Positions 522 through 17,290 of a stretch of DNA of 64,000 bases are shown in pieces; within the stretch, counting starts at the first letter, position 1; the number at the start of each line of letters is the position of its first letter. The stretch spans positions 62,001 through 126,000 of the forward strand of contig JAHCHE010000001.1 in NCBI GenBank assembly GCA_026129905.1. The letters run 5' to 3'. The notes beneath the pieces are model-generated. The model searched no databases. It was not told the DNA's origin and saw only the letters and a list, made by a program, of their open reading frames with translations. The position numbers and the translations under genes were made by a program. This stretch comes from Bryobacteraceae bacterium. Lineage in GTDB: Bacteria; Acidobacteriota; Terriglobia; Bryobacterales; Bryobacteraceae.

Positions 522-1556
522 ATGAACTACAGGAGTTCCTATCGCAGGCTCCTCGGCAACGGGAAGTCGGCGCTGATGGCCGCGATAGAGATCTACAACA
601 AGCCGAGGATCGACTACCGCGATGAATGCTTCGTCATTCTGCTGCTCAATGCTTGGGAACTAATTCTCAAAGCGGTGCTCTCGAAGAATGGCAAGTCGAT
701 TTTCTACCCGAAGCGTCGGCATGAGCCGTACCGCACCTTCTCACTGGATGACGCATTCCGGAAAGCGGAGCCCCTCCTGCCCGCCGAGTTCGGCACCCAA
801 GCCTTACGGCTGAATCTTGAATTGCTCAGCACGTACCGCGATAATGCTGTGCATTTCTACAATGCCGAGGGCTTCGGGTCGGTGATCTACGCACTCGCGC
901 AGACTAGCGTTATCAACCTCAAGGATCTGCTGAAGGCAATGTTCGACATTGATCTGTCGGACGAAATCACGTGGCAGTTGCTGCCATTGGGCCTCGACAC
1001 GCCGATAGATCCGATTCAGTACATCGCGGGGTCGCAGACCGGCGCGAAGCAAGGTACTGCGGTCAAGCAATTCCTCGGCGAGATCGCACGCTCCACTCAG
1101 GCCCTCGAAAAGCAAAAACTCGATACCGGTCGGCTGCTGACGGTGTTCAAGGTGAAGATGGAGTCCACGAAGAAGATCGAGCACGCAGACCTCGTAATGG
1201 GCGTGCAAAAAGCGGATCAAGCCGGAGCCAGGCCTTTGGTAGTCGCCAAACCGATGGACCCGAACGTGACGCATCCGCTGCGCATGACGGAAGTGATCGG
1301 GGCAGTCGGTAGCCTCCGTGGACAGCCGTTCACCAGTAGCACCTTTCAGGCGATCGCGTGGAAGCACGGCCTGAAAGAGAATCCCACCTTCTGTTGGAGG
1401 GCGACGGAGGGAGTTCTGGTCCGCTATTCGCATGATGTGGTGGCGTTCCTGAAGCGGTTGACCGAGGGCGATGTGGAACTGGCGAAGAAAGAATACAAGG
1501 CGAGGGCGAAGAAGAAGGGAGCGCAGAAGCCAGCAACGGCGACCATCCTTCTTTAA
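522..1556 (+). CDS. DUF3644 family protein with HEPN-type RNase motif
   Basis: A 344-residue protein starting at ATG 522 with an AGGAACC ribosome site just upstream. Residues about 5-115 carry the DUF3644 pattern (an AAIEIYNKP segment, then a long helix with LLLNAWELILKA). R106-DNAV-H111 fits the Rx4-6H active-site motif of HEPN ribonucleases. The C-terminal half (about 250-315) looks like a winged-helix DNA/RNA-binding segment ending with a VLVRYSHDVVAFLKRL helix. DUF3644 proteins are found in bacterial defence and mobile regions; RNA cleavage as an abortive-infection or toxin activity is inferred from the motif. It sits between an HTH gene and a decayed HTH copy, which suggests a regulator-toxin pair that was once duplicated. 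No partner antitoxin is evident. Confidence 0.7.
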   Translation: MNYRSSYRRLLGNGKSALMAAIEIYNKPRIDYRDECFVILLLNAWELILKAVLSKNGKSIFYPKRRHEPYRTFSLDDAFRKAEPLLPAEFGTQALRLNLELLSTYRDNAVHFYNAEGFGSVIYALAQTSVINLKDLLKAMFDIDLSDEITWQLLPLGLDTPIDPIQYIAGSQTGAKQGTAVKQFLGEIARSTQALEKQKLDTGRLLTVFKVKMESTKKIEHADLVMGVQKADQAGARPLVVAKPMDPNVTHPLRMTEVIGAVGSLRGQPFTSSTFQAIAWKHGLKENPTFCWRATEGVLVRYSHDVVAFLKRLTEGDVELAKKEYKARAKKKGAQKPATATILL

Positions 1557-2088: not shown

Positions 2089-2193
2089 ATGCCTCGCGGT
2101 TCGCTTGACAGTCGACCCGCACTTGAGGTAGAAGAATATGTGATCACCATATTGGGTTCGCTCGCCGATCCTAAGCAGGCGAGGTCGCGTTGA
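2089..2193 (+). CDS. Possible 34-residue peptide coupled to the metallopeptidase gene
   Basis: An ATG at 2089 opens a 34-codon frame ending in TGA at 2191-2193, overlapping the TTG start of the next gene (TTGA, 2190-2193). Such an overlap is typical of translational coupling. The peptide (…LEVEEYVITILGSLADP…) is amphipathic and matches nothing I recognise. ImmA/IrrE proteases usually follow an XRE regulator gene, so this may be what remains of one, or a leader peptide. There is no strong ribosome site, and the frame could also extend upstream to 1990. Confidence 0.3.
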   Translation: MPRGSLDSRPALEVEEYVITILGSLADPKQARSR

Positions 2194-3548
2194 GTATTAC
2201 ATCGGGTGTTTGGACCAATCGATCTGTGCTCGCTCTCGCTGGCGACGCGGATCCTATTCAACTCATTACGAACAAGGCTCGTACCTTGGCGATGGAGGCC
2301 ATCCAGAACGGATGGTCAGGCCCTCCGTACGATCCTTTTGAGCTTGCTGACCAACTGAAGATCACGATAACAGCAAGGCAGGATATTCCTGATGCCCGTA
2401 CAGTCCCATCGAGGTCAGGATTTGCGATTGAGTTCAATCCGAACCGGCCAAGAAGTCGCGTGAAGTATTCCATCTGTCACGAACTTGCCCACACCCTCTT
2501 TCCAGATTGCGGCCAGCGTGTCCGGAATCGGATCACCCATCAGGACACCAAGGGCGATGAGTGGCAATTGGAATCCCTGTGCAACATCGCTGCCGCCGAA
2601 CTATTAATGCCAGTCGGGAGTATTCCGTCCCTAGAAGCGGGGCGACTCACTATTGATGGCGTCTTGGAGGAGCGAAAGAACCATGAGGTTTCGCTGGAAG
2701 CCGTTTTGCTCCGCGGCGTTCGCATCACCAGTGATCAATGTTGCGTGTTCAGCGCGTCGAGGCGAGATCCCGGCTCAGATCGTGAAGGGTACTTCATCGA
2801 CTACGCAATCGGCTCACGTGTTTGGACCCCTAGCATGACTGTGGGAATGCCGCTACCCAAGAATACAGCCGCGGCAGACTGTACGGCGATTGGCTTTACG
2901 GCAAAGGCTCATGAGATTTGGCACGGGCTAGGTAGCGTCCGTGTCGAGTGCGTCGGTGCACCGCCTTACCCCAATCAAACATACCCACGCGTTTTGGGTA
3001 TTGTTCGGCGGCAGAAGCAGATACCCGTTGAAGTAGCCGAAATAACTCATGTTCAAGGAGATGCTACGTGCCCGCACGGTACCGGCGGCAAACTTGTCGC
3101 ACAAATCGTAAACGATAGTGCATTTACTTGGGGCGGCGGCTTTTCGCGGGCCGCCAGAGAAACATGGCCAGCAGCGCAGAAATCATTTCGGACCTGGGCC
3201 GAACAGAGTCGTACAAACCTGAAGCTTGGGAACGTTCACGTCGCATCGGTCGAACTTGGCGTGACCGTTGTGAGTATGATTGCCCAGCATGGTTATGGTC
3301 CGTCACCCAAACCACGCATCCGGTACATGGCGCTCAAGGCCTGTCTTGAAAAATTGGGGCAACTTGGTGCTGACCGGCACATGACCGTTCATATGCCGAA
3401 GGTGGGTTCTGGTCAAGCAGGCGGCTCGTGGAGCATTATTCGCGAATTGATTCGGGAAGAGGTCTGCGGCCGAGGCGTGAAAGTTGTCGTTTACGAGCTT
3501 CCTGGCAGCAAGCCTAAGCAGCGGCAGAGGATGCTCGAATTCTCATAA
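2190..3548 (+). CDS. ImmA/IrrE metallopeptidase fused to a macro domain
   Basis: A 452-residue protein; the start is TTG 2190, with GGCGAGG upstream. The N-terminal domain (about 20-190) is an ImmA/IrrE (M78) zinc peptidase: HELAH at 97-101 and a third ligand probably at E128 in the ESLCNIAAAELLMP helix. A linker of about 90 residues follows. The C-terminal domain (about 282-440) looks like a macro domain: GDAT at 290-293, a VNDSAFTWGGGF segment at 307-318, and VGSGQAGG at 405-412, all at positions that contact ADP-ribose in the family. M78 proteases usually cleave repressors or antitoxins, and macro domains bind or remove ADP-ribose. The fusion could therefore link ADP-ribose sensing to proteolysis, which is an inference. 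It is the first gene of a three-gene operon; the next starts 17 bases later. Confidence 0.8.
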   Translation: MSITSGVWTNRSVLALAGDADPIQLITNKARTLAMEAIQNGWSGPPYDPFELADQLKITITARQDIPDARTVPSRSGFAIEFNPNRPRSRVKYSICHELAHTLFPDCGQRVRNRITHQDTKGDEWQLESLCNIAAAELLMPVGSIPSLEAGRLTIDGVLEERKNHEVSLEAVLLRGVRITSDQCCVFSASRRDPGSDREGYFIDYAIGSRVWTPSMTVGMPLPKNTAAADCTAIGFTAKAHEIWHGLGSVRVECVGAPPYPNQTYPRVLGIVRRQKQIPVEVAEITHVQGDATCPHGTGGKLVAQIVNDSAFTWGGGFSRAARETWPAAQKSFRTWAEQSRTNLKLGNVHVASVELGVTVVSMIAQHGYGPSPKPRIRYMALKACLEKLGQLGADRHMTVHMPKVGSGQAGGSWSIIRELIREEVCGRGVKVVVYELPGSKPKQRQRMLEFS

Positions 3549-3565
3549 CGTGAAGCTGAGGGCAA

Positions 3566-5185
3566 GTGGCAAAACGAATCATTCTCCTGTCGGGCCCGGT
3601 TTCGGCGGGAAAGAGCACCCTCGCAGATGCCTTAGTTGAACGCTTTGACGCCCTTGTCCTGAGAACTCGTGACGTCATTGTGGCCACCGCCAGAGGTGTG
3701 CTCGCATCTGAGCGAGCCGCACTACAACTCCACGGCGAAAAGCTCGACCGCAAGACCGATGGCGCATGGGTAGCCGCCGCCTTGACCAGGTTTGCTGAAT
3801 CGCTGCCAGCCGACGCAATCATCGTAGTTGATTCAGTCCGGATCATCAAACAGGTACACGCGGTTCGACGCGCCTATGGCTCTCGTGTCGTACACGTCCA
3901 TCTGTCTGCAGATCTCTCTGTGCTTGCTCAGCGATATAAACACAAGCAACGACAGACGAAGTTTCGAGAATTCGGCTCGTACGCTGAATTATCCGTCAAC
4001 CGAACGGAGCGCCACGTCGGCCGCCTTGCGAAATCTGCAGATGTGGTCATCGAGACAGACCGCAGTAGCAAAGCTGATGTCATGGTACGTGCGGCCTCGC
4101 GGCTTGGTCTCTACGGCAAGGAAAACAGGCAATTAGTCGATGTCCTGGTCGGTGGTGCGTACGGAAGCGAAGGCAAGGGTCATATTGCTTCTTACCTTGC
4201 TCCGGAATACGACATCCTCATGCGAGTTGGCGGTCCGAACGCCGGTCACAAAGTCTTTGAGGATCCAAAGCCCTACGTCCATCACTTACTGCCGTCTGGA
4301 ACTCGCAAGTGCGACGCGGAGCTGATGATTGCACCCGGGGCTGTCCTCGATGTGCCGCAACTGCTCAAGGAGATCGCGGAATGCAATGTCAGCGCGAATC
4401 GGCTGACGATCGATCCGCACGCTATGATCATCGAGAAGCAGGATCAAGAGTTCGAAGCATCAACGCTTGTGGGCAGCATTGGTTCGACGGGTCAAGGGGT
4501 TGGAGCAGCCACCGCACGGAAGATTATGCGTGGTGCCACGACGCCGCCAGTTCGCCTTGCCAAGGATGTGCCTGAGATCCGCCCGTTTGTCCACGAGACC
4601 GGTTGCCGTCTGGAGAAGGCGTTTCGAGAGGGTCAGCGCGTGTTTCTCGAAGGCACCCAGGGTTTCGGTTTGAGCCTCCACCATGGAAAGTATCCCCATG
4701 TCACATCTCGCGACACAGCCGTTGCCGGTTGCCTTTCCGAGGCTGGTATTCCGCCGTGCCGTGTTCGCCGAGTCGTCATGGTTTGCCGAACCCTACCGAT
4801 TCGGGTCAAGAGCCCGTCGAAGAAGTATAGCTCGGGGCCGATGGCGCAGCCGCTGAGGTGGCGCGACGTGGCCGCAAGGTCGGGATACGGAGCGCAAGAA
4901 CTGATGAAGGCGGAGCACACATCAACGACGAACAGGCTTCGTCGCGTTGGGGAGTTTGAGTGGGACCTGTTCAGACGCGCGGTATCACTCAATGGTCCTA
5001 CCGACGTTGCGTTGTCGTTCGTGGACTATATCAGTCGCAGCAATGCCTCGGCCCGCCGCTTTGAGCAACTTACTGGTGAGACCATTCGTTTTATTGAAGA
5101 ACTTGAGCGAGTGGCTTGCGCGCCAGTATCACTTATCTCTACTCGTTTCAATTACCGCAGCATCATCGACCGCCGCTCCTGGTAG
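3566..5185 (+). CDS. P-loop kinase fused to PurZ/PurA-like adenylosuccinate synthetase
   Basis: A 539-residue fusion; the start is GTG 3566 behind a GAGGG site. Residues 1-185 are a P-loop kinase of the nucleotide-kinase type, with Walker A GPVSAGKST at 10-18. Residues about 189-539 are homologous to adenylosuccinate synthetase: GAYGSEGKG (198-205), VGGPNAGH (221-228), an HHLLPSG segment, STGQGVG, EGTQGFGLSLHHGKYPHVTS (362-381), and a TTNRLRR aspartate-binding loop (454-460). Lys204 and His228 are kept, but the catalytic Asp of PurA (GDEGKG) is Ser201. The GTP-selecting TKLD motif is replaced by SFVD (484-487). The synthetase part is about 350 residues, shorter than bacterial PurA at about 430. 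An Asp-to-Ser/Gly change and short length are traits I recall for phage PurZ, which acts on dGMP. A purine-nucleotide amino-transfer reaction is likely; the true substrate is unknown. Confidence 0.75.
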   Translation: MAKRIILLSGPVSAGKSTLADALVERFDALVLRTRDVIVATARGVLASERAALQLHGEKLDRKTDGAWVAAALTRFAESLPADAIIVVDSVRIIKQVHAVRRAYGSRVVHVHLSADLSVLAQRYKHKQRQTKFREFGSYAELSVNRTERHVGRLAKSADVVIETDRSSKADVMVRAASRLGLYGKENRQLVDVLVGGAYGSEGKGHIASYLAPEYDILMRVGGPNAGHKVFEDPKPYVHHLLPSGTRKCDAELMIAPGAVLDVPQLLKEIAECNVSANRLTIDPHAMIIEKQDQEFEASTLVGSIGSTGQGVGAATARKIMRGATTPPVRLAKDVPEIRPFVHETGCRLEKAFREGQRVFLEGTQGFGLSLHHGKYPHVTSRDTAVAGCLSEAGIPPCRVRRVVMVCRTLPIRVKSPSKKYSSGPMAQPLRWRDVAARSGYGAQELMKAEHTSTTNRLRRVGEFEWDLFRRAVSLNGPTDVALSFVDYISRSNASARRFEQLTGETIRFIEELERVACAPVSLISTRFNYRSIIDRRSW

Positions 5186-5191
5186 AGGATT

Positions 5192-5854
5192 ATGACGACG
5201 GATCAACTCACCTCGAATTATCCGCGCCTCTACCACATGGCCAATGCCGGCATGTGGCCGTCGTTGCGAGAAAAGGGCTTGCTGAGCACGACGGCGCTCC
5301 TCGATCTCTTTGAAGTCGAGGGCGACGAGCGCTTTCGCATCGAGAGCTGCCATCGACCCATGTGCATTCCAATCCAGCATCCACGGCACGGCGCCGTAGT
5401 GATCCGCGACCAAGCTCCGATGCGAGAAGGTGCGCTCGAAAAGTGCCTCGTGGGTGTGACTCCGCGGCAATGGTACGAACTCCTCAATCGGCGCGTGTTC
5501 CTCTGGGTAACCGAGCATCGGGTCAAGGGGCTGCTCGGCGCCAAACTCTACCGGGATCACGAACACACCGTTCTCACGATTGATACCGCCAGCCTGCTCG
5601 CTGTTCACAGAGAACATGTAACGCTTTCACCCATAAACTCCGGAAACACCCTATACAATCCCCCGAAGCGCGGGGCGTTCACGTTCCAGCCGATCGAGCA
5701 GTATCCCTTCGAGGAGCGACGGCGAAAGCGAGGTCTGTCCGACGCCGTTGTGGAACTTGCCGTTGACCACTCGGTTCCTGACCTCGCACGGCACGTCCTT
5801 CTGGTAGAGCGCCGACAAGGCGAGCAGATCCTCGAGATTCTCTATTCGCCTTAA
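5192..5854 (+). CDS. DUF7002 protein, possible ADP-ribosyltransferase
   Basis: A 220-residue protein; the ATG at 5192 is preceded by AGAGGA and lies six bases after the previous stop. It matches the DUF7002 pattern: YPRLYHMANAGMWPSLREKG near the N-terminus (His15), GLLST, RDQAPM, VFLWVTEHR, and a VLTIDTASLL strand. The order (Tyr-His, then an 'I…GLLS' turn, then an aromatic strand) resembles DarT/DUF4433-type and KptA-like ADP-ribosyltransferases. That fold assignment is my inference and not an established fact. As the last gene of the operon, with a macro-domain protein first, it suggests a writer (this protein) and a reader or eraser (macro) of ADP-ribose, with the kinase-synthetase enzyme in between. 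Confidence 0.6.
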   Translation: MTTDQLTSNYPRLYHMANAGMWPSLREKGLLSTTALLDLFEVEGDERFRIESCHRPMCIPIQHPRHGAVVIRDQAPMREGALEKCLVGVTPRQWYELLNRRVFLWVTEHRVKGLLGAKLYRDHEHTVLTIDTASLLAVHREHVTLSPINSGNTLYNPPKRGAFTFQPIEQYPFEERRRKRGLSDAVVELAVDHSVPDLARHVLLVERRQGEQILEILYSP

Positions 5855-6133: not shown

Positions 6134-8269
6134 ATGGCCAACGGAAATCTGAACTGGATAGCGAACTTTATCTGGGGCATCGCCGACGATGTCCTGCGCG
6201 ACGTGTACGTACGCGGCAAGTATCGGGACGTGATCCTCCCCATGACGGTGATCCGCCGTCTTGACGCGGTCCTTGAGCCGACCAAGCAAAAGGTGCTCGC
6301 TATGAAGGAGCACCTGGACAAGGCCAGGATCGCCAACCAAGATGCGGCTTTGCGGAAGGCAGCCGGCCAATCATTCTATAACGCTTCGCCCTTTACCCTT
6401 CGTGACCTGCGCTCGCGCGCCAAGACTCAGAAGCTAAAGGCGGACTTTGAAGCCTACCTCGACGGCTTCTCCCCAAACGTCCAGGAGATTCTGGAAAAGT
6501 TCAAGTTCCGCAACCAGATTCCTACCCTGGTGGATGCCGACATCCTCGGCCATGTGATCGAGAAATTTCTTGACAAGACCATCAACCTCGCGCCCATGCC
6601 GATGCTCAATCCGGACGGCACCGAACGACTACCCGGCCTGGATAACCACGCTATGGGCACGATCTTTGAGGAGCTCATCCGCCGCTTCAATGAAGAGAAC
6701 AACGAAGAAGCCGGCGAGCACTTCACGCCGCGCGACGTGGTTCGTCTCATGTCGGAGCTGATCCTCTTGCCGATCGCCAGCCAGATTCACTCAGCTACAT
6801 ACCTCGTCTATGATGGCGCTTGTGGTACCGGCGGAATGCTGACGATAGCCGAAGAGCGACTGAAGGAGCTTGCCCAGGAACATGGGAAGGACGTATCGAT
6901 CCATCTCTTTGGACAGGAAGTCAACTCTGAAACCTACGCGATCACGAAATCGGACCTCCTATTGAAAGGACAGGGCGAAGAAGCGGAAAACTTCGCCTTC
7001 GGCTCCACTCTCTCCCAAGACGGCTTCCCCACGCGCGAGTTCGACTTCATGCTTTCCAACCCTCCATACGGCAAAAGTTGGAAAACCGATCTGGAAAGGA
7101 TGGGCGGCAAGGGCGACATCCGAGACCCGCGCTACGTCATCGAACATGCAGGCGATCCCGAATACAGTCTTATCACCCGTTCCAGCGACGGACAATTGAT
7201 GTTCCTCGTCAACAAGCTCTCAAAGATGAAGCACCGGACCAAGCTCGGCAGCCGTATTGCCGAGGTGCATAACGGATCCTCCTTGTTCACCGGCGACGCC
7301 GGTCAGGGAGAGAGCAACATCCGCCGCTGGATCATCGAGAACGATTGGCTTGAAGCCATCATCGCGCTCCCGCTCAACATGTTCTATAACACCGGCATCG
7401 CGACATACATTTGGATCCTGACAAACCGCAAACCCGAGCAGCGTCGAGGCAAGGTGCAGTTGATTGACGCTACCGCTTGGTTCAAGCAGCTTCGGAAAAA
7501 CCTTGGAAAGAAGAACTGCGAGCTCTCTACCGACGACATAGCCCGGATCATGAAAACGTTCCTTGACTTCGAGGAAAGTCCTGAATCGAAGATCTTTGCG
7601 AATAAGGCCCTCGGGTACTGGAAGATCACCGTTGAGCGACCTCTGCGTCTCAAGGTGGATCTTCATTCCTCTAAGCTCGCCAAGTTCCGCGTGGCAGTGA
7701 AGGAAGCAGGCGAAGAGCTGCTCGCAAATCTCGTCGAACGCCTTGCCGCGACGCTGGGCGAAGGGCCGCATACCGACTACAACGAATTCCTGACCGCCGT
7801 CGAGACGGACGCCGACGAACACAACGTCAAACTCACCGCCAAGCGCCTAAAGCTCCTGCAGTCCGTTTTGGCTGAGCGCGACGAAACGGCCTCCCCGGTG
7901 GTGAAGAAGGTCCATAAGCTGGGGAAGGCCAAGGAAGACCCGCTCCACGGGCTCTATCCAGTCCGGCATCAGGGAAAGGATGTGATCGTCCAGTACGAGC
8001 CCGACTCCGAACTGCGGGACAGCGAGCAGGTACCGCTTCTAGAGGATGGCGGTATCGAAGCGTTCTTCCAACGCGAGGTGCTTCCGTACGTATCGGACGC
8101 CTGGATCGACGAATCGGCAACGAAGATCGGATACGAGATCTCCTTCACGCGGTATTTCTATAAACCAGTCCCTTTGCGCTCACTCGAAGAGATCCGAGCC
8201 GATATGGAAGCGCTCGAAACTGAGAGCGCCGGCCTGCTGGACGAGCTATTTAAGGTGACAGCAAAATGA
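6134..8269 (+). CDS. hsdM: Type I restriction-modification methyltransferase subunit
   Basis: A 711-residue HsdM. The N-terminal helical domain (WIANFIWGIADDVLRD…) is followed by the N6-adenine methyltransferase core: a DGACGTGG AdoMet motif at 227-234 and catalytic NPPY at 309-312. The C-terminal extension is long for the family (usual length about 500-540), with coiled and basic segments. The enzyme methylates adenine in the sequence chosen by HsdS and also forms part of the restriction complex. The stop overlaps the hsdS start (ATGA, 8266-8269). The 279 bases upstream (5855-6133) carry no gene; they are the likely promoter region but I see no convincing -35/-10 pair. Confidence 0.93.
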   Translation: MANGNLNWIANFIWGIADDVLRDVYVRGKYRDVILPMTVIRRLDAVLEPTKQKVLAMKEHLDKARIANQDAALRKAAGQSFYNASPFTLRDLRSRAKTQKLKADFEAYLDGFSPNVQEILEKFKFRNQIPTLVDADILGHVIEKFLDKTINLAPMPMLNPDGTERLPGLDNHAMGTIFEELIRRFNEENNEEAGEHFTPRDVVRLMSELILLPIASQIHSATYLVYDGACGTGGMLTIAEERLKELAQEHGKDVSIHLFGQEVNSETYAITKSDLLLKGQGEEAENFAFGSTLSQDGFPTREFDFMLSNPPYGKSWKTDLERMGGKGDIRDPRYVIEHAGDPEYSLITRSSDGQLMFLVNKLSKMKHRTKLGSRIAEVHNGSSLFTGDAGQGESNIRRWIIENDWLEAIIALPLNMFYNTGIATYIWILTNRKPEQRRGKVQLIDATAWFKQLRKNLGKKNCELSTDDIARIMKTFLDFEESPESKIFANKALGYWKITVERPLRLKVDLHSSKLAKFRVAVKEAGEELLANLVERLAATLGEGPHTDYNEFLTAVETDADEHNVKLTAKRLKLLQSVLAERDETASPVVKKVHKLGKAKEDPLHGLYPVRHQGKDVIVQYEPDSELRDSEQVPLLEDGGIEAFFQREVLPYVSDAWIDESATKIGYEISFTRYFYKPVPLRSLEEIRADMEALETESAGLLDELFKVTAK

Positions 8270-9705
8270 CAGGCGGACTCAAACCATACCCAAAGTACAA
8301 ACAATCAAGCGTTTCCTGGCTTGGTCAAGTTCCAGAACGCTGGACGGTTTGTCGTATCAAAAATGTTCTCCGTGAGAACGACCGCCGGTCGCCCGATGGC
8401 TCAGGTGTGTTGTTATCGCTCACACGAGTACGTGGCTTGATCCCGCACAGCGACGCAACAGACAAACTACATAGTGCCACCACCCTTGTTGGTTACAAGA
8501 CCTATCGTCCTGGTCAGATCGTCATGAACCGTATGCAAGCATGGAGCGGAATGTTTGGAGCGACATGCATTGAAGGGCTTGTGAGCCCGGATTACGCGGT
8601 TTTCGATCTCTTGGACAATCAGCGTGTTGACTTTGCATTAGAGCGCCTGAAGGCGCCAGACCTTGTGGACCAGTTCGCTCTGCAATCGAAGGGGATCGGT
8701 TCAGGTTTCAATCGCTTATACACAGATCGATTTGGCTCGATTCCCCTGGCGGTTCCTCCGCCCGACGAGCAAAAGGCTATTGTCAACTTTCTAAACTGGT
8801 CGAACTTGCGAATCGACCGGGCGATTCGGGCCAAGCGGAAGATTATCGCGCTACTGAACGAGCAGAAGCAGACGATAATCCAACGCGCGGTCACACGTGG
8901 ACTGGACCCCAAAGTGCGCTTTAAGTCATCTGGCATCCAGGGAATGAACGACATCCCTGAACACTGGGAAGTCTTTCGCCTTCGGATGGTTATTAGGCGC
9001 ATTGATCAGGGCGTTAGCCCACAAGCGGAGGCGTTGCTAGCTGAGGACGGAGCGTGGGGAGTGCTCAAATCCGGTTGCGTCAATCACGGCGTGTTCCGAG
9101 ACACTGAACACAAGCGGCTGCCAGATGGCTTTGAGATCGATTCCTCTCTCACTGTGAATATTGGCGATGTATTGGTTTCGCGTGCATGCGGATCACCCGC
9201 TCTTGTTGGTTCCGTAGCAAAAGTGAAGACACTCCGTTATGAGCTATTACTCTCCGACAAGACGTTCCGTCTTGTGTTCAAAGATCCTGCGCTCACCGAT
9301 TTCTTGGTCGCTGCCATGAATACCCGATACTATCGCACTCAGGTTGAGCAGGCGATCAGCGGCGCCGAAGGTTTGGCAAATAATCTCCCCCTTTCTTCTC
9401 TTAAGGACTTTAAATTGGTAATTCCTCCCAAACCGGAAGCCAAACAGATCGAACGTTATCTAGCGCATGAACTTCAGAGAATCTCTTCTGCCATTGAGCG
9501 GACCGAACGTGAAATTGGGCTCCTGCGCGAATACCGTACCCGTTTGACCGCAGATGTTGTAACCGGAAAGCTGGATGTCCGGGGGGTGGAACTACCCGAG
9601 GCCGAAGAAATCATTGAAGAGTCTATCACAGCGGAAGGCGAGGAAACCGACGAGGCAGAAGGACAAGGCGAAGCACTAAACGAAGAAACCTATGCCAACG
9701 ACTGA
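8266..9705 (+). CDS. hsdS: Type I restriction-modification specificity subunit
   Basis: A 479-residue HsdS with two target-recognition domains, each opening with the usual 'W-L/I-x-x-[VI]-P-x-x-W' signature (SWLGQVPERW near 18 and NDIPEHWEV near 227). Conserved helical spacers end in QKQTIIQRAVTRGL and LLREYRTRLTADVVTGKLDV. The acidic tail (about 445-479) is rich in Glu. It sets the bipartite DNA target of the complex. It overlaps hsdM by 4 bases and hsdR by 14, so translation of the three genes is coupled. Confidence 0.92.
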   Translation: MTGGLKPYPKYKQSSVSWLGQVPERWTVCRIKNVLRENDRRSPDGSGVLLSLTRVRGLIPHSDATDKLHSATTLVGYKTYRPGQIVMNRMQAWSGMFGATCIEGLVSPDYAVFDLLDNQRVDFALERLKAPDLVDQFALQSKGIGSGFNRLYTDRFGSIPLAVPPPDEQKAIVNFLNWSNLRIDRAIRAKRKIIALLNEQKQTIIQRAVTRGLDPKVRFKSSGIQGMNDIPEHWEVFRLRMVIRRIDQGVSPQAEALLAEDGAWGVLKSGCVNHGVFRDTEHKRLPDGFEIDSSLTVNIGDVLVSRACGSPALVGSVAKVKTLRYELLLSDKTFRLVFKDPALTDFLVAAMNTRYYRTQVEQAISGAEGLANNLPLSSLKDFKLVIPPKPEAKQIERYLAHELQRISSAIERTEREIGLLREYRTRLTADVVTGKLDVRGVELPEAEEIIEESITAEGEETDEAEGQGEALNEETYAND

Positions 9706-12646
9706 CACTTCAGAAAAAGGGCTGGAGACCATAATCACTGAATCCCTCGTCAGCGGGGCCAGCTACGCTGCGGGCGATCCAGCGGAGTACGACCGCGACC
9801 ACGCTCTCGATTTCGTGAAGCTCGTCGCGTTCCTCAAGACCACTCAGCCCAAGGTGTTCGAGCAACTCGGAATGGCGGAAGAAGGCCCGAAACGCACCTC
9901 CTTCCTCGCCCGCCTTCAAGGGGAAGTCGCTAAGCGCGGAGTCATTGACGTTCTCCGCGGCGGCGTGAAGCATGGCGCCTCTAGTGTGGACCTGTTCTAC
10001 GGCACACCCTCGCCAGAGAACGCCAAAGCCGTCGAACGCTTCGGACAAAACATCTTCTCCGTGACGCGCCAGCTTCGCTACAGCAAGGACGAAACTCAGC
10101 TTGCGCTCGACCTCTGTATTTTCATCAACGGCCTCCCTATCGCCACGTTTGAACTGAAGAACAATCTTACTAAGCAGACCGTCGAAGACGCGGTCCAGCA
10201 GTACAAGCGCGACCGCGATCCCCGCGAGCTTCTCTTCCAGTTCGGCCGCTGCATGGTCCACTTTGCGGTGGACGATCAGGAGGTACGCTTCTGCACCGAA
10301 CTGAAAGGTCCGGCTTCATGGTTCCTTCCCTTCAATAAGGGATTTAACGACGGAGCCGGCAACCCTCCCAATCCTGACGGCCTGAAGACCGATTACCTTT
10401 GGCGCAACGTGCTGTCGCGTACGGGTATCACTGACATCATCGAGAACTATGCCCAGGCGGTCGAAGAGAAGGACCCAAAGACCGGGCGCAAGAAACGCCG
10501 GCAGATCTTCCCGCGCTATCACCAGCTCGATGTGGTCCGCAAGCTCCTCACCGATGCCAGAACCCGCGGCGCTGGGAGACGCTACCTGATTGAGCATTCA
10601 GCCGGCAGCGGCAAGAGCAACTCCATCGCCTGGCTCGCGCATCAGCTCGTCGGGCTCGAAGAGGGCAGTAAGCAGGTATTCGACTCCGTCATTGTCGTGA
10701 CGGATCGGCGGGTGCTCGACAAGCAGATCAAGGACACCATCAAGCAGTTCGCCCAGGTGTCCTCGACCGTGGGCCACGCCGAACACACCGGCGACCTGCG
10801 GAAGTATCTTGCATCCGGCAAGAAGATAGTCATTTCGACTGTTCAAAAATTCCCTGTCCTTCTCAAGGACATCGGCGATGAACACCGAGGCCGGACTTTC
10901 GCAATCATAATTGACGAAGCGCACTCCAGCCAGAGCGGTCGCACGGCGGCCCAAATGAATATGGCTCTCTCCACGGAAGGCGCCGAAAAGGAAGAGGAGA
11001 CCTTCGAAGACCAGATCAACCGGATCATGGAAGCACACAAGATGCTTCCCAACGCCAGTTATTTCGCCTTCACCGCAACGCCGAAGAACAAGACACTGGA
11101 GGTATTTGGCGACCCGTGCCCGGAGGGGGATAAGGTCAAGCATGAACCGTTCCACAGCTACACCATGAAGCAGGCCATTCAGGAAAGATTCATCTTGGAT
11201 GTGCTCGCAAACTATACTCCCGTAGACAGCTACTACCGGCTCATCAAGACCATCGAAGACGATCCCGAGTTCGACGTGAAGAAGGCCCAGAGGAAGCTCC
11301 GTCACTACGTCGAATCCCATGAGGACGCGATCTGCAAGAAGGCCGAGATCATGGTGGACCACTTTCATGAGAAGGTCGCCGCCCTTCAGAAAATTGGCGG
11401 CCAGGCGCGCGCCATGGTTGTCACAGGCAGCATCGAGCGTGCGATTCAGTATTACAGCGCCTTCCGCGACTACCTGAAAGAACGGAAAAGTCCGTATCAG
11501 GCGATTGTCGCCTTCTCCGGGGAGCACGAGTTTGGCGGCAAGAAGATGACCGAGTCATCGTTGAATGGTTTTCAGAGCAATCTCATTCCCGAGCGCTTCC
11601 AGGAGGACCCGTATCGGTTCCTCGTTTGCGCCGAGAAGTTCCAGACAGGATACGACGAGCCGCTGCTCCATACCATGTACGTGGACAAGGTCTTGTCGGG
11701 CATCAAGGCGGTGCAGACGCTCTCGCGCCTTAACCGCGCCCATCCGAAAAAGCACGATACATTCGTTCTTGATTTTCAAAACGACACTGACACCATCCGT
11801 GCGTCGTTCGAGCCGTACTACCGTACGACCATCTTGAGTGAGGAAACCGATCCGAATAAGCTCCATGATCTGAAGGCGACACTCGACGGCTACCAGGTGT
11901 ACAAAGCCGCGGAGGTTGACAAGCTCGCTCAACTCTTCCTCGGCGGTGCGGCGCGGGACACCCTTGATCCCATCCTGGACGCCTGCGTAGCCGTGTATAT
12001 AGACACCCTCGACGAGGATGGGCAGGTTGACTTCAAAGGGAAGGCAAAAGCGTTCATCCGCATCTACGGCTTCCTTTCGTCGATCCTCTCTTACACGAAT
12101 GCCGAATGGGAGAAGCTCTCCATCTTCCTGAACTTTCTCATCCCCAAGCTGCCCGCGCCGAAGGAAGAGGACCTGTCCAAAGGCATTCTTGAGAACATCG
12201 ATATGGAAAGCTACCGGCCAGAGGTGCGATCCGCCATCAACATCGCACTCGCCGACCAGGATGCAGAGATCGGTCCCGTTCCGACCGCGGGGGGCGGGCT
12301 CACGCCCGAGCCTGAGCTCGACCGGCTCAGCAATATCGTCAAGGCCTTCAACGAGCAGTTTGGGAATATCGACTGGAAAGACGCCGACAAGATTCGGAAG
12401 GTGATCGCGGAAGAAATTCCGGCCAAGGTCTCAGCTGACAAAGCCTATCAGAATGCGATCCGAAATTCTGACAAACAGAACGCTCGCATCGAACACGATA
12501 GAGCCCTCCAGCGCGTCCTGGTGGAACTGCTGTCGGACCACACTGAGCTATTCAAGCAGTTCCAGGACAACGCGACTTTCAAGAAATGGCTCGCCGACAC
12601 TATATTTGCCGCTACATACACACAACTCCAGGCTGTCGAAGGGTAG
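9692..12646 (+). CDS. hsdR: Type I restriction enzyme, motor and nuclease subunit
   Basis: A 984-residue HsdR. The N-terminal PD-(D/E)XK nuclease region includes SSVDLFYGTPS and the FELKN strand that supplies the E-x-K pair. The SF2 translocase follows, with Walker A HSAGSGKS at 302-309 (Lys308) and IDEAH at 407-411. A late helicase motif is visible in the LSRLNRAHPKKHDTFVLDF region. The C-terminal helical domain docks on HsdM. It cleaves foreign DNA after ATP-driven translocation. The reading frame is intact, so the locus looks functional. The ATG at 9692 lies inside the hsdS 3' end. Confidence 0.93.
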   Translation: MPTTDTSEKGLETIITESLVSGASYAAGDPAEYDRDHALDFVKLVAFLKTTQPKVFEQLGMAEEGPKRTSFLARLQGEVAKRGVIDVLRGGVKHGASSVDLFYGTPSPENAKAVERFGQNIFSVTRQLRYSKDETQLALDLCIFINGLPIATFELKNNLTKQTVEDAVQQYKRDRDPRELLFQFGRCMVHFAVDDQEVRFCTELKGPASWFLPFNKGFNDGAGNPPNPDGLKTDYLWRNVLSRTGITDIIENYAQAVEEKDPKTGRKKRRQIFPRYHQLDVVRKLLTDARTRGAGRRYLIEHSAGSGKSNSIAWLAHQLVGLEEGSKQVFDSVIVVTDRRVLDKQIKDTIKQFAQVSSTVGHAEHTGDLRKYLASGKKIVISTVQKFPVLLKDIGDEHRGRTFAIIIDEAHSSQSGRTAAQMNMALSTEGAEKEEETFEDQINRIMEAHKMLPNASYFAFTATPKNKTLEVFGDPCPEGDKVKHEPFHSYTMKQAIQERFILDVLANYTPVDSYYRLIKTIEDDPEFDVKKAQRKLRHYVESHEDAICKKAEIMVDHFHEKVAALQKIGGQARAMVVTGSIERAIQYYSAFRDYLKERKSPYQAIVAFSGEHEFGGKKMTESSLNGFQSNLIPERFQEDPYRFLVCAEKFQTGYDEPLLHTMYVDKVLSGIKAVQTLSRLNRAHPKKHDTFVLDFQNDTDTIRASFEPYYRTTILSEETDPNKLHDLKATLDGYQVYKAAEVDKLAQLFLGGAARDTLDPILDACVAVYIDTLDEDGQVDFKGKAKAFIRIYGFLSSILSYTNAEWEKLSIFLNFLIPKLPAPKEEDLSKGILENIDMESYRPEVRSAINIALADQDAEIGPVPTAGGGLTPEPELDRLSNIVKAFNEQFGNIDWKDADKIRKVIAEEIPAKVSADKAYQNAIRNSDKQNARIEHDRALQRVLVELLSDHTELFKQFQDNATFKKWLADTIFAATYTQLQAVEG

Positions 12647-12682: not shown

Positions 12683-13204
12683 TCATCTCTCAGATGTTCG
12701 AAGATGCCGCGTAATATGGTCGTCGAAGAGTGTGGACGCAAACGCCACCGCATCAAACACCGCCATCATCTCGGCTTCGCTTTTCCATGGTTTTCGGGGG
12801 CGTGGTAGCCGAGGCGCCAGTTCAGGAAACCGCTTCGCGATCAGCTCAGCGGTTCGATGTTTGCTTCTTGCGCCGGAAGACGAGAAGAACTCCCGGACCT
12901 TCCGTTGCGTAACCCGCTTGACCTTCATCCCTCTTCGCTCCACCAGCGTCTCGATTGAGGAAAGCAGTCGCCTTGCTCTCGCCCCTCGGCGCGATCCGCG
13001 CCGGACATCCTCCATCACAAGGACACGCGGTCTGTACTGATCGATGAGCTTAAGCACGCGATCAAGACTTTTCCGGTGCTTGTCGGTTGTTGCGTGCACC
13101 ACTCCCCAATCGATGAGGCGGCTGCCACCTTCGATGATGGCGAAACCGAAGCCGCGGCTTGTTGGATCGATGCTCAGGATCCTGGTGCCGGTTGAAGTCG
13201 TCAT
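12683..13204 (-). CDS. RuvC-like Holliday-junction/RNase H-fold nuclease
   Basis: A 173-residue protein starting at ATG 13204, which overlaps the XRE gene's stop (ATGA). The RNase H-fold signature is clear: ILSIDPTSRGFGFAII with Asp13, VLVMED with Glu65, and a C-terminal helix containing E143/E145 and Asp151 (MMAVFDAVAFAS). This matches RuvC's Asp-Glu-Asp/Asp layout, although sequence similarity is limited to these blocks. It is probably a junction resolvase carried by the mobile element. An alternative is a structure-specific nuclease of unknown use. It shares an operon with the XRE regulator and faces hsdR tail-to-tail, with 36 bases between stops. Confidence 0.7.
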   Translation of the reverse strand: MTTSTGTRILSIDPTSRGFGFAIIEGGSRLIDWGVVHATTDKHRKSLDRVLKLIDQYRPRVLVMEDVRRGSRRGARARRLLSSIETLVERRGMKVKRVTQRKVREFFSSSGARSKHRTAELIAKRFPELAPRLPRPRKPWKSEAEMMAVFDAVAFASTLFDDHITRHLRTSER

Positions 13205-13551
13205 CGTTCCTTTTGGGATTGGCGGCTCGCACGTATTGCGGTGGCCAAGGTCTCCAGCTTTGCCCTTATAATCGGCGTTTCGACTCTCGCGCTCAGTTTC
13301 CCGCCCAGGCGTCCGATCCGCTTGAGCGTCTTTCTTTCGATTGCGGCAAAGACGCCGGCGAACAGATCCCGCACCGGAACCCGGAAGATCGCTTCATAGG
13401 CTAGAGCTGTCTCCAAGGTCGGGGTCCTCTTCCGCTGCTCGTAACGCGACACTTTAGACCCGTTAGCGCAGCCCAGGAGGTATCCGACCTCATCCTGGGT
13501 GAGACCGCTCCGTTTGCGATACATTCGCAGGTAGTTGAGTAGTGTAAGCAT
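13201..13551 (-). CDS. XRE-family transcriptional regulator
   Basis: A 116-residue protein from ATG 13551. Residues 1-65 form a Cro/C1-type HTH: LRMYRKRSGLTQDEVGYLLG, then SKVSRYEQRKRTPTLETALAYEAIF. The rest (about 75-116) is basic and helical. It is cotranscribed with the RuvC-like gene, whose start overlaps its stop. A palindrome centred on GGTTAACC lies six bases upstream of the start codon and is a plausible autoregulatory operator. Confidence 0.85.
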   Translation of the reverse strand: MLTLLNYLRMYRKRSGLTQDEVGYLLGCANGSKVSRYEQRKRTPTLETALAYEAIFRVPVRDLFAGVFAAIERKTLKRIGRLGGKLSARVETPIIRAKLETLATAIRASRQSQKER

Positions 13552-15682: not shown

Positions 15683-17290
15683 ATGAACGCAGTCATCTAT
15701 TGCCGTGTTTCCTCAAAAGAGCAAGTGGAAGGCACCAGCCTGGAATCTCAACAGCTCGCCTGCGAGGAGTATGCCCGTGCCCGAAACATTCAGGTGTTCA
15801 AGACGTTCATCGAGCAGGGAGAGTCGGCGAAGTTTGCCGACCGCACTGAGCTTCTATCTCTTCTAGATTTCTGTCGTGAGAACAAGGGAAAGGTCAACAT
15901 GCTCCTGGTTTGGAAGGTTGACCGGTTCGCCCGGAATGTAGCGGACCATTTCAGCGTCAAAGCTACCCTCCAGAAGTATGGGGTGGACATCGTGTCCGTG
16001 ACAGAGCCGATCGACGCCAACCCCGAGGGGAAGCTCATGGAAACGATTCTGGCCGGCTTCGCCCAGTTCGACAACGATATCCGTGCCGCTCGGACCGTAC
16101 AAGGCATGAGGCGCAAGATCCAGGAGGGAATCTTCCCCTGGAGGCCTCCGCTAGGATACAAGAGCCCAACCAGGAGTCGGGAGAAGAAAAACAGGCCAGA
16201 TGAGCCCGATCAGCCCCTGTTTGGACTCCTTCAGAAAGCATGGCAGCAGTTCACCACTGGAATCTACACCAAGGCTGAAATACGGCGCCTCATGGAAAGC
16301 TGGGGCATCACCTCGCGGAACGATCTGCCGCTGTCCGACTCCTCCATCGATAATTTCTTCCGCAACCCGTATTACGCCGGCATTCTCGTCGATCCATGGT
16401 CCGGAGAAGAACACCAGGGGAAGCACGTCCCAATGGTCTCCAGCGAAGAATTCGCACAGGTACAGCAGCTTGTGGCCAAACGGAGCCGGGCCATACCGCA
16501 TCATCGGCATCGAGAAGAGTTTCCTCTCAAGGGACTCGTGCGATGCAGCGGGTGCGGAAGGTACCTGACCGCAGCCTTCAGCCGCGGCCGGTCACGCCGC
16601 TACCCCTATTACCACTGCTATCACCAAGCCTGCCATCTTCGGGACAAAGCTCTTCCGGCAGACGGAGTACACGAAGAATTTAGGGCATACCTGCCGCTGA
16701 TTGCTCCGAAAACAGAACTGCTGGCCAACCTCGGGGAGATCGCACTGAGATCAGCCGAGGGACGCGAGCAGGCTTATCGTTCTAGGCGAACACAGACGAA
16801 GAATTCTCTTGACGGCCTGAATAATGAGATGCGTGAACTAATACGGATGCGAGCACAACGGCTCATTTCAGACGAGGAATTCAAGAGTCAGCGAACCGCT
16901 CTCTTGGAGAAGCGCCATGCCATTGAGGTACAGGGAAAGCCCACCCGATTCAACTCGGTCGAGATTAAGGAACGACTTCACGAAGTTGCGGCTCCTCTCC
17001 ACGCTCTCCTCGATACCTGGAAGAGGCTACTGCCCGCCGTCCGTTCCCGGTTCCAACGTTTGATCTTTCCGGTTGGATTCATTGCCGGAAATATTCGAAC
17101 CGCCGAATTGGGGCTTCTCTTCAGGACATTTGGCGATTTTCTGACAGGCAATCCCCATGTGGTCCCCCTCGACCTCAAAACTTTGAACCAGATATATCAA
17201 GAACTACAAGAGTTTGCGAGTGTTCTGAAGGGAGATGAAGAGCAGAAAGAGCAATCGGGAAAGCGTGTTCGAAAACATTCCAACAAATAG
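15683..17290 (+). CDS. Large serine recombinase 1
   Basis: A 535-residue recombinase. The resolvase catalytic domain (1-140) contains YCRVSSKEQ with catalytic Ser10, and the WKVDRFARNVADH and ETILAGFAQFDNDIRAARTVQGMR arginine-bearing helices. The recombinase domain (about 150-260) is followed by a zinc ribbon (CSGCGRY … CYHQACHL, about 285-325), a coiled coil (about 350-410) and a basic tail. It catalyses integration and excision by a serine mechanism. It differs clearly from the comM-proximal recombinase at 41.06 kb, so a second element or an older insertion is likely. I did not find flanking attachment sites. Confidence 0.9.
   Translation: MNAVIYCRVSSKEQVEGTSLESQQLACEEYARARNIQVFKTFIEQGESAKFADRTELLSLLDFCRENKGKVNMLLVWKVDRFARNVADHFSVKATLQKYGVDIVSVTEPIDANPEGKLMETILAGFAQFDNDIRAARTVQGMRRKIQEGIFPWRPPLGYKSPTRSREKKNRPDEPDQPLFGLLQKAWQQFTTGIYTKAEIRRLMESWGITSRNDLPLSDSSIDNFFRNPYYAGILVDPWSGEEHQGKHVPMVSSEEFAQVQQLVAKRSRAIPHHRHREEFPLKGLVRCSGCGRYLTAAFSRGRSRRYPYYHCYHQACHLRDKALPADGVHEEFRAYLPLIAPKTELLANLGEIALRSAEGREQAYRSRRTQTKNSLDGLNNEMRELIRMRAQRLISDEEFKSQRTALLEKRHAIEVQGKPTRFNSVEIKERLHEVAAPLHALLDTWKRLLPAVRSRFQRLIFPVGFIAGNIRTAELGLLFRTFGDFLTGNPHVVPLDLKTLNQIYQELQEFASVLKGDEEQKEQSGKRVRKHSNK

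Follow-up and report, generated by a model that had tools for sequence, protein, structure and literature searches.

Here we describe a three-gene operon of a Bryobacteraceae bacterium which encodes a protease-macrodomain fusion, a fusion of a kinase to a PurZ-like synthetase, and a protein of the DUF7002 family. The enzymatic identities of the three products are well supported, and from them we infer a joint mechanism and a role in defence. In the reading that we prefer, which is plausible and still tentative, the operon would be a conflict module that is mobile and probably directed against phages. An ADP-ribosyltransferase (ART) would serve as the effector and the protease-macrodomain protein as antidote and trigger, and the kinase-PurZ protein would divert dGMP to 2-aminoadenine nucleotides. 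Known PurZ enzymes come from phages in which 2-aminoadenine (Z) takes the place of adenine.

The operon was analysed within a window of 64,000 nucleotides of contig JAHCHE010000001.1 (Table 1). An initial annotation, made from the letters alone, had placed three genes on one strand, separated by 17 and 6 nt; rereading of the sequence returned the same coordinates, order and gaps, and all three genes are intact and co-directional. Profile searches bore out its placement of the operon between a DUF3644 gene and a type I restriction-modification locus. They also recovered the metallopeptidase, macro, P-loop and synthetase motifs that it had reported, as matches to Peptidase_M78, a DarG-type macro domain, AAA_33 and Adenylsucc_synt, respectively. 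The operon sits on an accessory island: type IV coupling-protein genes are also present in the region, in addition to the recombinase listed in Table 1, and the preceding 19 kb of the contig reads as ordinary respiratory-chain genes. None of the operon loci read has an intact adjacent HTH gene; a fragment of an HTH gene lies here at positions 1-324 of the window, and its 3' end recurs as a short, diverged copy at ~1905-1962, upstream of the operon. Behind the restriction-modification locus, on the minus strand (12683-13551), an HTH gene overlaps with one that encodes a small RuvC-like protein.

Table 1. Features of the operon and its surroundings (positions in the window)
Feature	Position	Strand	Remarks
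DUF3644 + EC042_2821-like protein	522..1556	+	upstream neighbour; PADLOC candidate defence gene PDC-S19 (8e-132)
Gene 1, M78-macro	2190..3548	+	452 aa, TTG start
CapP/PprI-type M78 metalloprotease + GAF-like region (sensor half)	2235..3026	+	aa ~16-279
SCO6735/BT1257-type (ALC1-like) macrodomain	3030..3503	+	aa ~281-438
Gene 2, kinase-PurZ	3566..5185	+	539 aa, GTG start; 17 nt after gene 1
Kinase domain (AAA_33; AdkA-like)	3566..4120	+	homologous to separate kinase beside PurZ in other bacteria
PurZ-like (succino-aminodeoxyadenylate synthetase-like) domain	4127..5182	+	H228, T308, R318, Q365, T380, R459/R460, D487 kept
AGC = Ser201	4166..4168	+	aligned with catalytic Asp13 of PurA; PurZ has Ser here
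Gene 3, DUF7002	5192..5854	+	220 aa, ATG start; 6 nt after gene 2
His15 of DUF7002	5234..5236	+	invariant; aligned with NAD-binding His region of DarT1
Glu188 of DUF7002	5753..5755	+	invariant; aligned with ART glutamate, AEVLV motif of DarT
Type I restriction-modification locus hsdM-hsdS-hsdR (HsdM/HsdS/HsdR)	6134..12646	+	downstream neighbour, complete
Large serine recombinase	15683..17290	+	neighbour; sign of mobile element

The same operon, in the same order and spacing, was found on two contigs of Terriglobia MAGs (L004 and L005; L labels are our own), with 56-78% protein identity and different flanking genes. Synonymous positions of the operon genes are saturated (pS ~0.8) and nonsynonymous change is low (pN 0.15-0.28), and therefore all three genes have been kept by selection. 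Using a threshold of E<=1e-30, the gene-1 fusion of M78 and macro domains was detected in 6 of the 399 genomes in our sample of the class; the same six, which come from several families, have the fused kinase-PurZ gene, each with DUF7002 next to it (Fisher p 1.9e-13 for co-occurrence of the two fusions, with relatedness ignored). The conserved order and spacing amid unrelated flanks, the saturated pS with low pN, and this exact co-occurrence argue that the operon is not a product of chance. The proposal of a three-gene system in the initial annotation had been staked on such a search, and it withstood it, in the class and at further loci elsewhere.

Several copies within the class are degraded. 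A seventh genome (L128) retains a fragment of gene 2, a transposase-like insertion lies within gene 2 of L125, and gene 1 of L124 is rearranged, by inversion or misassembly. In L127 (L127:6248-9514) the PurZ domain has suffered a deletion of ~155 codons and a stop, and the protease-macro and DUF7002 genes are intact, which indicates that the nucleotide and ADP-ribose branches of the operon can separate. A role of PurZ as an antidote to DUF7002 was considered and is disfavoured by the same locus.

Gene 2 matches the AAA_33 P-loop kinase (5e-7), Adenylsucc_synt (1.5e-50) and PurZ (phrog_1211, 2e-66) models. By profile its synthetase domain is closest to archaeal PurA, with PurZ next, and the NCBIfam PurZ model NF038379 scores it at 217.7 bits, below the cut-off of 300. 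The decisive position is Asp in 99% of PurA and Ser in 100% of phage PurZ (PMC12884076). Every kinase-PurZ protein aligned has Ser at this site, Asp13 of PurA, and Asp is present in the PurA of the same genome and in the PurA-like enzyme of L015, described below. The viral set was retrieved with a pattern containing GSEGKG, so that Ser was partly selected there and the viral loci are not independent support for it; this bias does not extend to the members from plasmids and class genomes. This residue narrows to PurZ-like what had been labelled 'PurA/PurZ-like', and the domain is supported by sequence as one of the succino-aminodeoxyadenylate synthetase class. Among the residues kept is D487, the Asp that in PurA belongs to the GTP site. 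A full-length housekeeping PurA is encoded elsewhere in the genome, which makes gene 2 an accessory paralogue. The kinase domain is similar to NMP kinases of the AdkA type, with a weak match to the PADLOC dCTPase model (1.7e-4). No genes for a Z-polymerase or for dATP/dGTP hydrolases were found near the operon within the window.

The product of gene 3 is a clear member of Pfam DUF7002 (PF22531; 5e-71, 238.7 bits against a gathering score of 27), a family without name or function in the open-licence PMC papers searched. The best PDB match of its AlphaFold2 model (mean pLDDT 94) was DarT1 in Foldseek (8baq, 2.3e-5). VIA-align also ranked this structure at the top (Z 10.5 over 160 residues, 3.3 A), followed by DarTG (Z 10.1) and, at Z 8-9, by other DarT entries and tRNA 2'-phosphotransferases. 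Alignment with hhalign to DarT proteins of the same phylum gave E 8e-5 (probability 61%) versus 0.17 for an unrelated control, and a true DarT gene (L030) is matched by the Pfam DUF7002 model. In the other direction, the Pfam DarT model (PF14487) gave no match to DUF7002 at E up to 1, and by sequence DUF7002 is outside the Pfam DarT family. Residues H15, R55, D73 and E188 are invariant in all 24 aligned members, and Arg72 is present in 23 of the 24. Fold and residues together allow us to predict with high confidence that DUF7002 is a DarT-like ADP-ribosyltransferase. DarT1 itself couples ADP-ribose to N2 of guanine (PMC11543638). DUF7002 genes also occur alone (L016, L017) or near SIR2, the latter being a divergent copy directly 3' of a gene for a 1061-aa SIR2-domain protein (L029:4791-8776); none was found in the annotated phage records searched. 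The genome of the window also has a true Pfam DarT gene elsewhere (L134, G000:C18:39460-40071).

The two halves of gene 1 were resolved in a similar manner. The N-terminal half matches Peptidase_M78 (Pfam, 1e-4) and PADLOC capP (4e-17); its M78 motif is intact, the HEXXH residues H97, E98 and H101 being invariant together with E137. The model of residues 16-279 aligned with CapP (7t5t, VIA Z 16.1) and PprI (8slm, 15.3), both of which are activated by single-stranded DNA (PMC10904395). No CapH-like gene, which would be a candidate target of the protease, lies beside the operon. For the C-terminal half the profile search indicated a DarG-type macro domain, with a score of 17.1 bits against the DarG antitoxin model NF048014, under its curated cut-off of 250. 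The model of residues 281-438 aligned best with the BT1257 and SCO6735 macrodomains (5e3b/2fg1; Z 23.3-25.4), and DarG and TARG1 were lower (Z ~18). SCO6735 strips thymidine-linked ADP-ribose from DNA (PMC9411070). The residues reported as important in it, V25, N27, Q85 and G128, correspond to I306, N308, Q366 and G408 of gene 1, the last three of which are invariant in six homologues. The earlier idea of a target whose ADP-ribosylation is installed and undone is thereby strongly supported, with DUF7002 as the predicted writer and the macro half matching an eraser of DNA-linked ADP-ribose.

Outside the class, analysis of PLSDB plasmids revealed DUF7002 as the next gene in 8/8 full-length kinase-PurZ fusions (42-46% identity; hosts Rhizobium, Sinorhizobium, Agrobacterium and Methylobacterium), copies which are related and do not represent independent events. 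Gene 1 is absent from all eight of these loci, and each carries instead an HD protein and a 455-aa protein without recognised domain. The wider core is kinase-PurZ with DUF7002, which exists in at least two versions, one of them with the M78-macro gene. AbiE, SIR2, RelA/SpoT or VapBC genes are found close to the plasmid copies. The rhizobial HD protein is of the phage dNMP-phosphatase type (phrog_318, 6e-65). Its identification as DatZ was dropped: by profile it comes closest to Atu1052 and the dNMP phosphatases of phages, and DatZ was unmatched by profile and weak with a single sequence. For the 455-aa protein, an ATP-grasp/PEP-synthase-like character suggested by eye was given up, as searches of Pfam, NCBIfam, PHROGs and PDB profiles returned nothing usable. 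Two other rhizobial plasmid clusters contain relatives of the synthetase. A Sinorhizobium medicae plasmid (L014:5296-8057) has a standalone PurZ-like gene accompanied by genes for an HD phosphohydrolase and for a protein resembling DCD/dUTPase, and a BilD-like gene lies nearby; a Rhizobium leguminosarum plasmid (L015:5363-12926) has a PurA-like gene with folE, purB, queE, queC, IMP dehydrogenase and nitrile hydratase, a cluster which resembles a deazapurine pathway of the toyocamycin/sangivamycin type.

Kinase-PurZ genes are also found in viral collections. Two phage-like IMG/VR contigs (L036, L041) carry the complete three-gene operon, and in a third (L037) tail genes reading as a P2-like prophage are followed by a second kinase gene, the fusion and DUF7002. 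In L034, L035, L038-L040, L043 and L044 the fusion is present without DUF7002, in several cases beside family-A DNA polymerases and primase, a neighbourhood that would be expected in Z-genome phages. These contigs are probable phages and candidates for Z genomes in which the kinase is fused to PurZ, a fusion not mentioned in the 2026 survey of the enzymes of Z phages (PMC12884076). Additionally, chromosomes of Acidobacteriaceae have a cassette of separate genes (L126, L129, L131, L132 and, partly, L130; e.g. L131:4486-9117), encoding an HTH protein, an RNase H-like/DUF429 protein, a kinase, a PurZ-like protein with the Ser site, and a dCTP deaminase/dUTPase-like protein. The cassette adjoins ORFs reading as gyrA (L129) or gyrB (L131), and possibly represents bacterial Z-nucleotide metabolism. 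Its separate kinase is homologous to the fused kinase domain (hhalign E 4e-17) and matches the anti-phage dCTP deaminase model NF041025 (1.7e-7). From the fusions in probable phages and the separate-gene cassettes it follows that kinase and PurZ are a pair also where DUF7002 is missing. A quick tree of PurZ domains united all fused proteins in a single clade (support 96), with phage and bacterial copies interspersed, and it does not order phages and bacteria as first source.

A mechanism can be proposed in which both branches of the operon would strike a single resource, the purines of replicating DNA, the linkage of the branches being its weakest step. DUF7002 would act as the effector by NAD+-dependent tagging of a nucleobase, presumably in DNA or in a nucleotide, and in the resting cell the macrodomain of gene 1 would keep the host safe by stripping ADP-ribose from bases. 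The protease of gene 1, if activated by single-stranded DNA like both of its characterised relatives, could sense infection or DNA damage, and might then cut a partner, for which a repressor, DUF7002 and the protease itself are candidates, so that the effector is released. As phages degrade host DNA, a rise in dGMP may feed the kinase-PurZ protein, which would use GTP to couple dGMP with aspartate, giving succino-2-aminodeoxyadenylate. From this product host PurB could form dZMP, a 2-aminoadenine nucleotide, which the fused kinase could then raise to dZDP. The expected outcome would be that dG precursor is lost and that Z enters replicating DNA as a contaminant, which would poison or deplete the purines available for phage DNA. 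Because the macro gene is missing from rhizobial copies, and DUF7002 occurs alone or near SIR2, the macro protein is dispensable as an antidote, and it is doubtful that DUF7002 is toxic constitutively. Possible, if rather doubtful, is a broader formulation, in which kinase-PurZ would be the core of mobile immune systems making 2-aminoadenine deoxynucleotides on infection, with the ART modifying purines of replicating DNA in the operon described here. The partners of kinase-PurZ would then be interchangeable: a DarT-like ART with protease-macro, a dNMP phosphatase with the 455-aa protein, or a Dut-like and RNase H-like pair.

Other explanations were considered. Were the kinase-PurZ protein simply to drain dGMP and dGTP, with DUF7002 and the macro protein merely tuning it, its architecture of kinase domain and nucleotide enzyme would be comparable to that of the anti-phage dCTP deaminase AvcD, and the dCTPase and dCTP deaminase matches of the kinases, the dNMP phosphatase-like HD protein of the rhizobial version and the dCTP deaminase/dUTPase-like proteins of other PurZ cassettes would all fall into place. 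The most constant partner, however, is an ART-fold gene with conserved catalytic residues, which is superfluous to pure depletion, and we regard depletion alone as somewhat unlikely. In a Z-marking account, kinase-PurZ would put Z into replicating phage DNA, DUF7002 would ADP-ribosylate the N2 amine of Z (or G), and the macrodomain would shield host DNA. Z has the same N2 amine as the guanine modified by DarT1, the closest solved fold (PMC11543638), and kinase-PurZ with DUF7002 is the pair conserved in both versions of the system. Nevertheless, the nearest characterised relative of the macrodomain acts on thymidine-linked ADP-ribose and DUF7002 is found elsewhere without PurZ, so that marking of Z is an improbable account.

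That the operon is a toxin-antitoxin or addiction module, carried by mobile elements, instead of a means of phage immunity is also suggested by the frequent location on plasmids and integrated elements, by a writer and eraser paired as in DarTG, and by genes which overlap or have very short gaps; DUF7002 would then be the toxin, the macrodomain the antitoxin, and kinase-PurZ a modulator or second antidote. Three large enzymes, including a sensor-protease fusion, would be unusual for such a module, however, and defence genes are often neighbours. Furthermore, rhizobial DUF7002 without macro, as well as standalone DUF7002, warns against a simple toxin-antitoxin reading, and we consider it quite unlikely. 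Finally, the PurA-like domain could act on another purine nucleotide, such as GMP or an antibiotic precursor, in specialised metabolism, given that PurA relatives serve nucleoside-antibiotic clusters such as the deazapurine-type cluster of L015. The L015 enzyme, however, keeps Asp where the operon enzyme has Ser in all copies, and the operon has ART, macro and protease partners instead of biosynthetic neighbours; this possibility is very remote.

Should a mobile conflict module built on ART, protease-macrodomain and kinase-PurZ be the correct interpretation, Z-nucleotide chemistry would be tied to bacterial defence through conserved kinase-PurZ genes under purifying selection and a hitherto nameless ADP-ribosyltransferase family, and DUF7002 would gain a testable function. 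It would also suggest that phages and their hosts have exchanged a PurZ-type enzyme. All three proteins can be assayed, for turnover of dGMP, Asp and GTP, for NAD-dependent base modification and its removal, and for proteolysis triggered by single-stranded DNA. The system would be of a new kind should Z-nucleotide synthesis turn out to serve immunity; as it stands, it is grouped with the ART/macro conflict systems.

Comparison with known systems places each component in a familiar context. Like DarTG1 and DarTG2, the operon combines a DarT-like ART fold, having invariant His and Glu, with an adjoining macrodomain of the ALC1-like class that includes DarG, TARG1 and SCO6735; unlike them, its ART is unmatched by Pfam DarT, its macrodomain is of SCO6735 type and fused to a protease, kinase-PurZ is added, and some loci lack the macro gene. 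Gene 1 shares with the CBASS regulator CapP and with PprI/IrrE an M78 HEXXH protease, a GAF-like region and the overall fold (VIA Z 15-16), but it is fused to a macrodomain, and neither a CapH/DdrO-like repressor gene nor a cyclase was found alongside. Gene 2 resembles the PurZ of Z-genome phages (S-2L, phiVC8 and the PurZ0 group) in having Ser in place of PurA Asp13 and in keeping the substrate residues, and probable phages in IMG/VR have the same kinase fusion; it differs in that it is fused to a kinase, falls under the PurZ NCBIfam cut-off, keeps the GTP-type Asp487, and belongs to a bacterial operon without DpoZ, DatZ or MazZ. With AvcD and the dGTPase depletion systems gene 2 shares the fusion of a kinase-like domain to a deoxynucleotide-converting enzyme and an expected effect on the dNTP pool; its enzyme, however, is a synthetase and not a deaminase, and it has ART and macro partners. 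In agreement with the initial annotation, no published system with the set of protease-macro, kinase-PurZ and DUF7002 was found in the open-licence PMC papers searched. Taken singly, the components all belong to recognised types; what that literature does not contain is their combination, and PurZ chemistry within a conflict module of bacteria.
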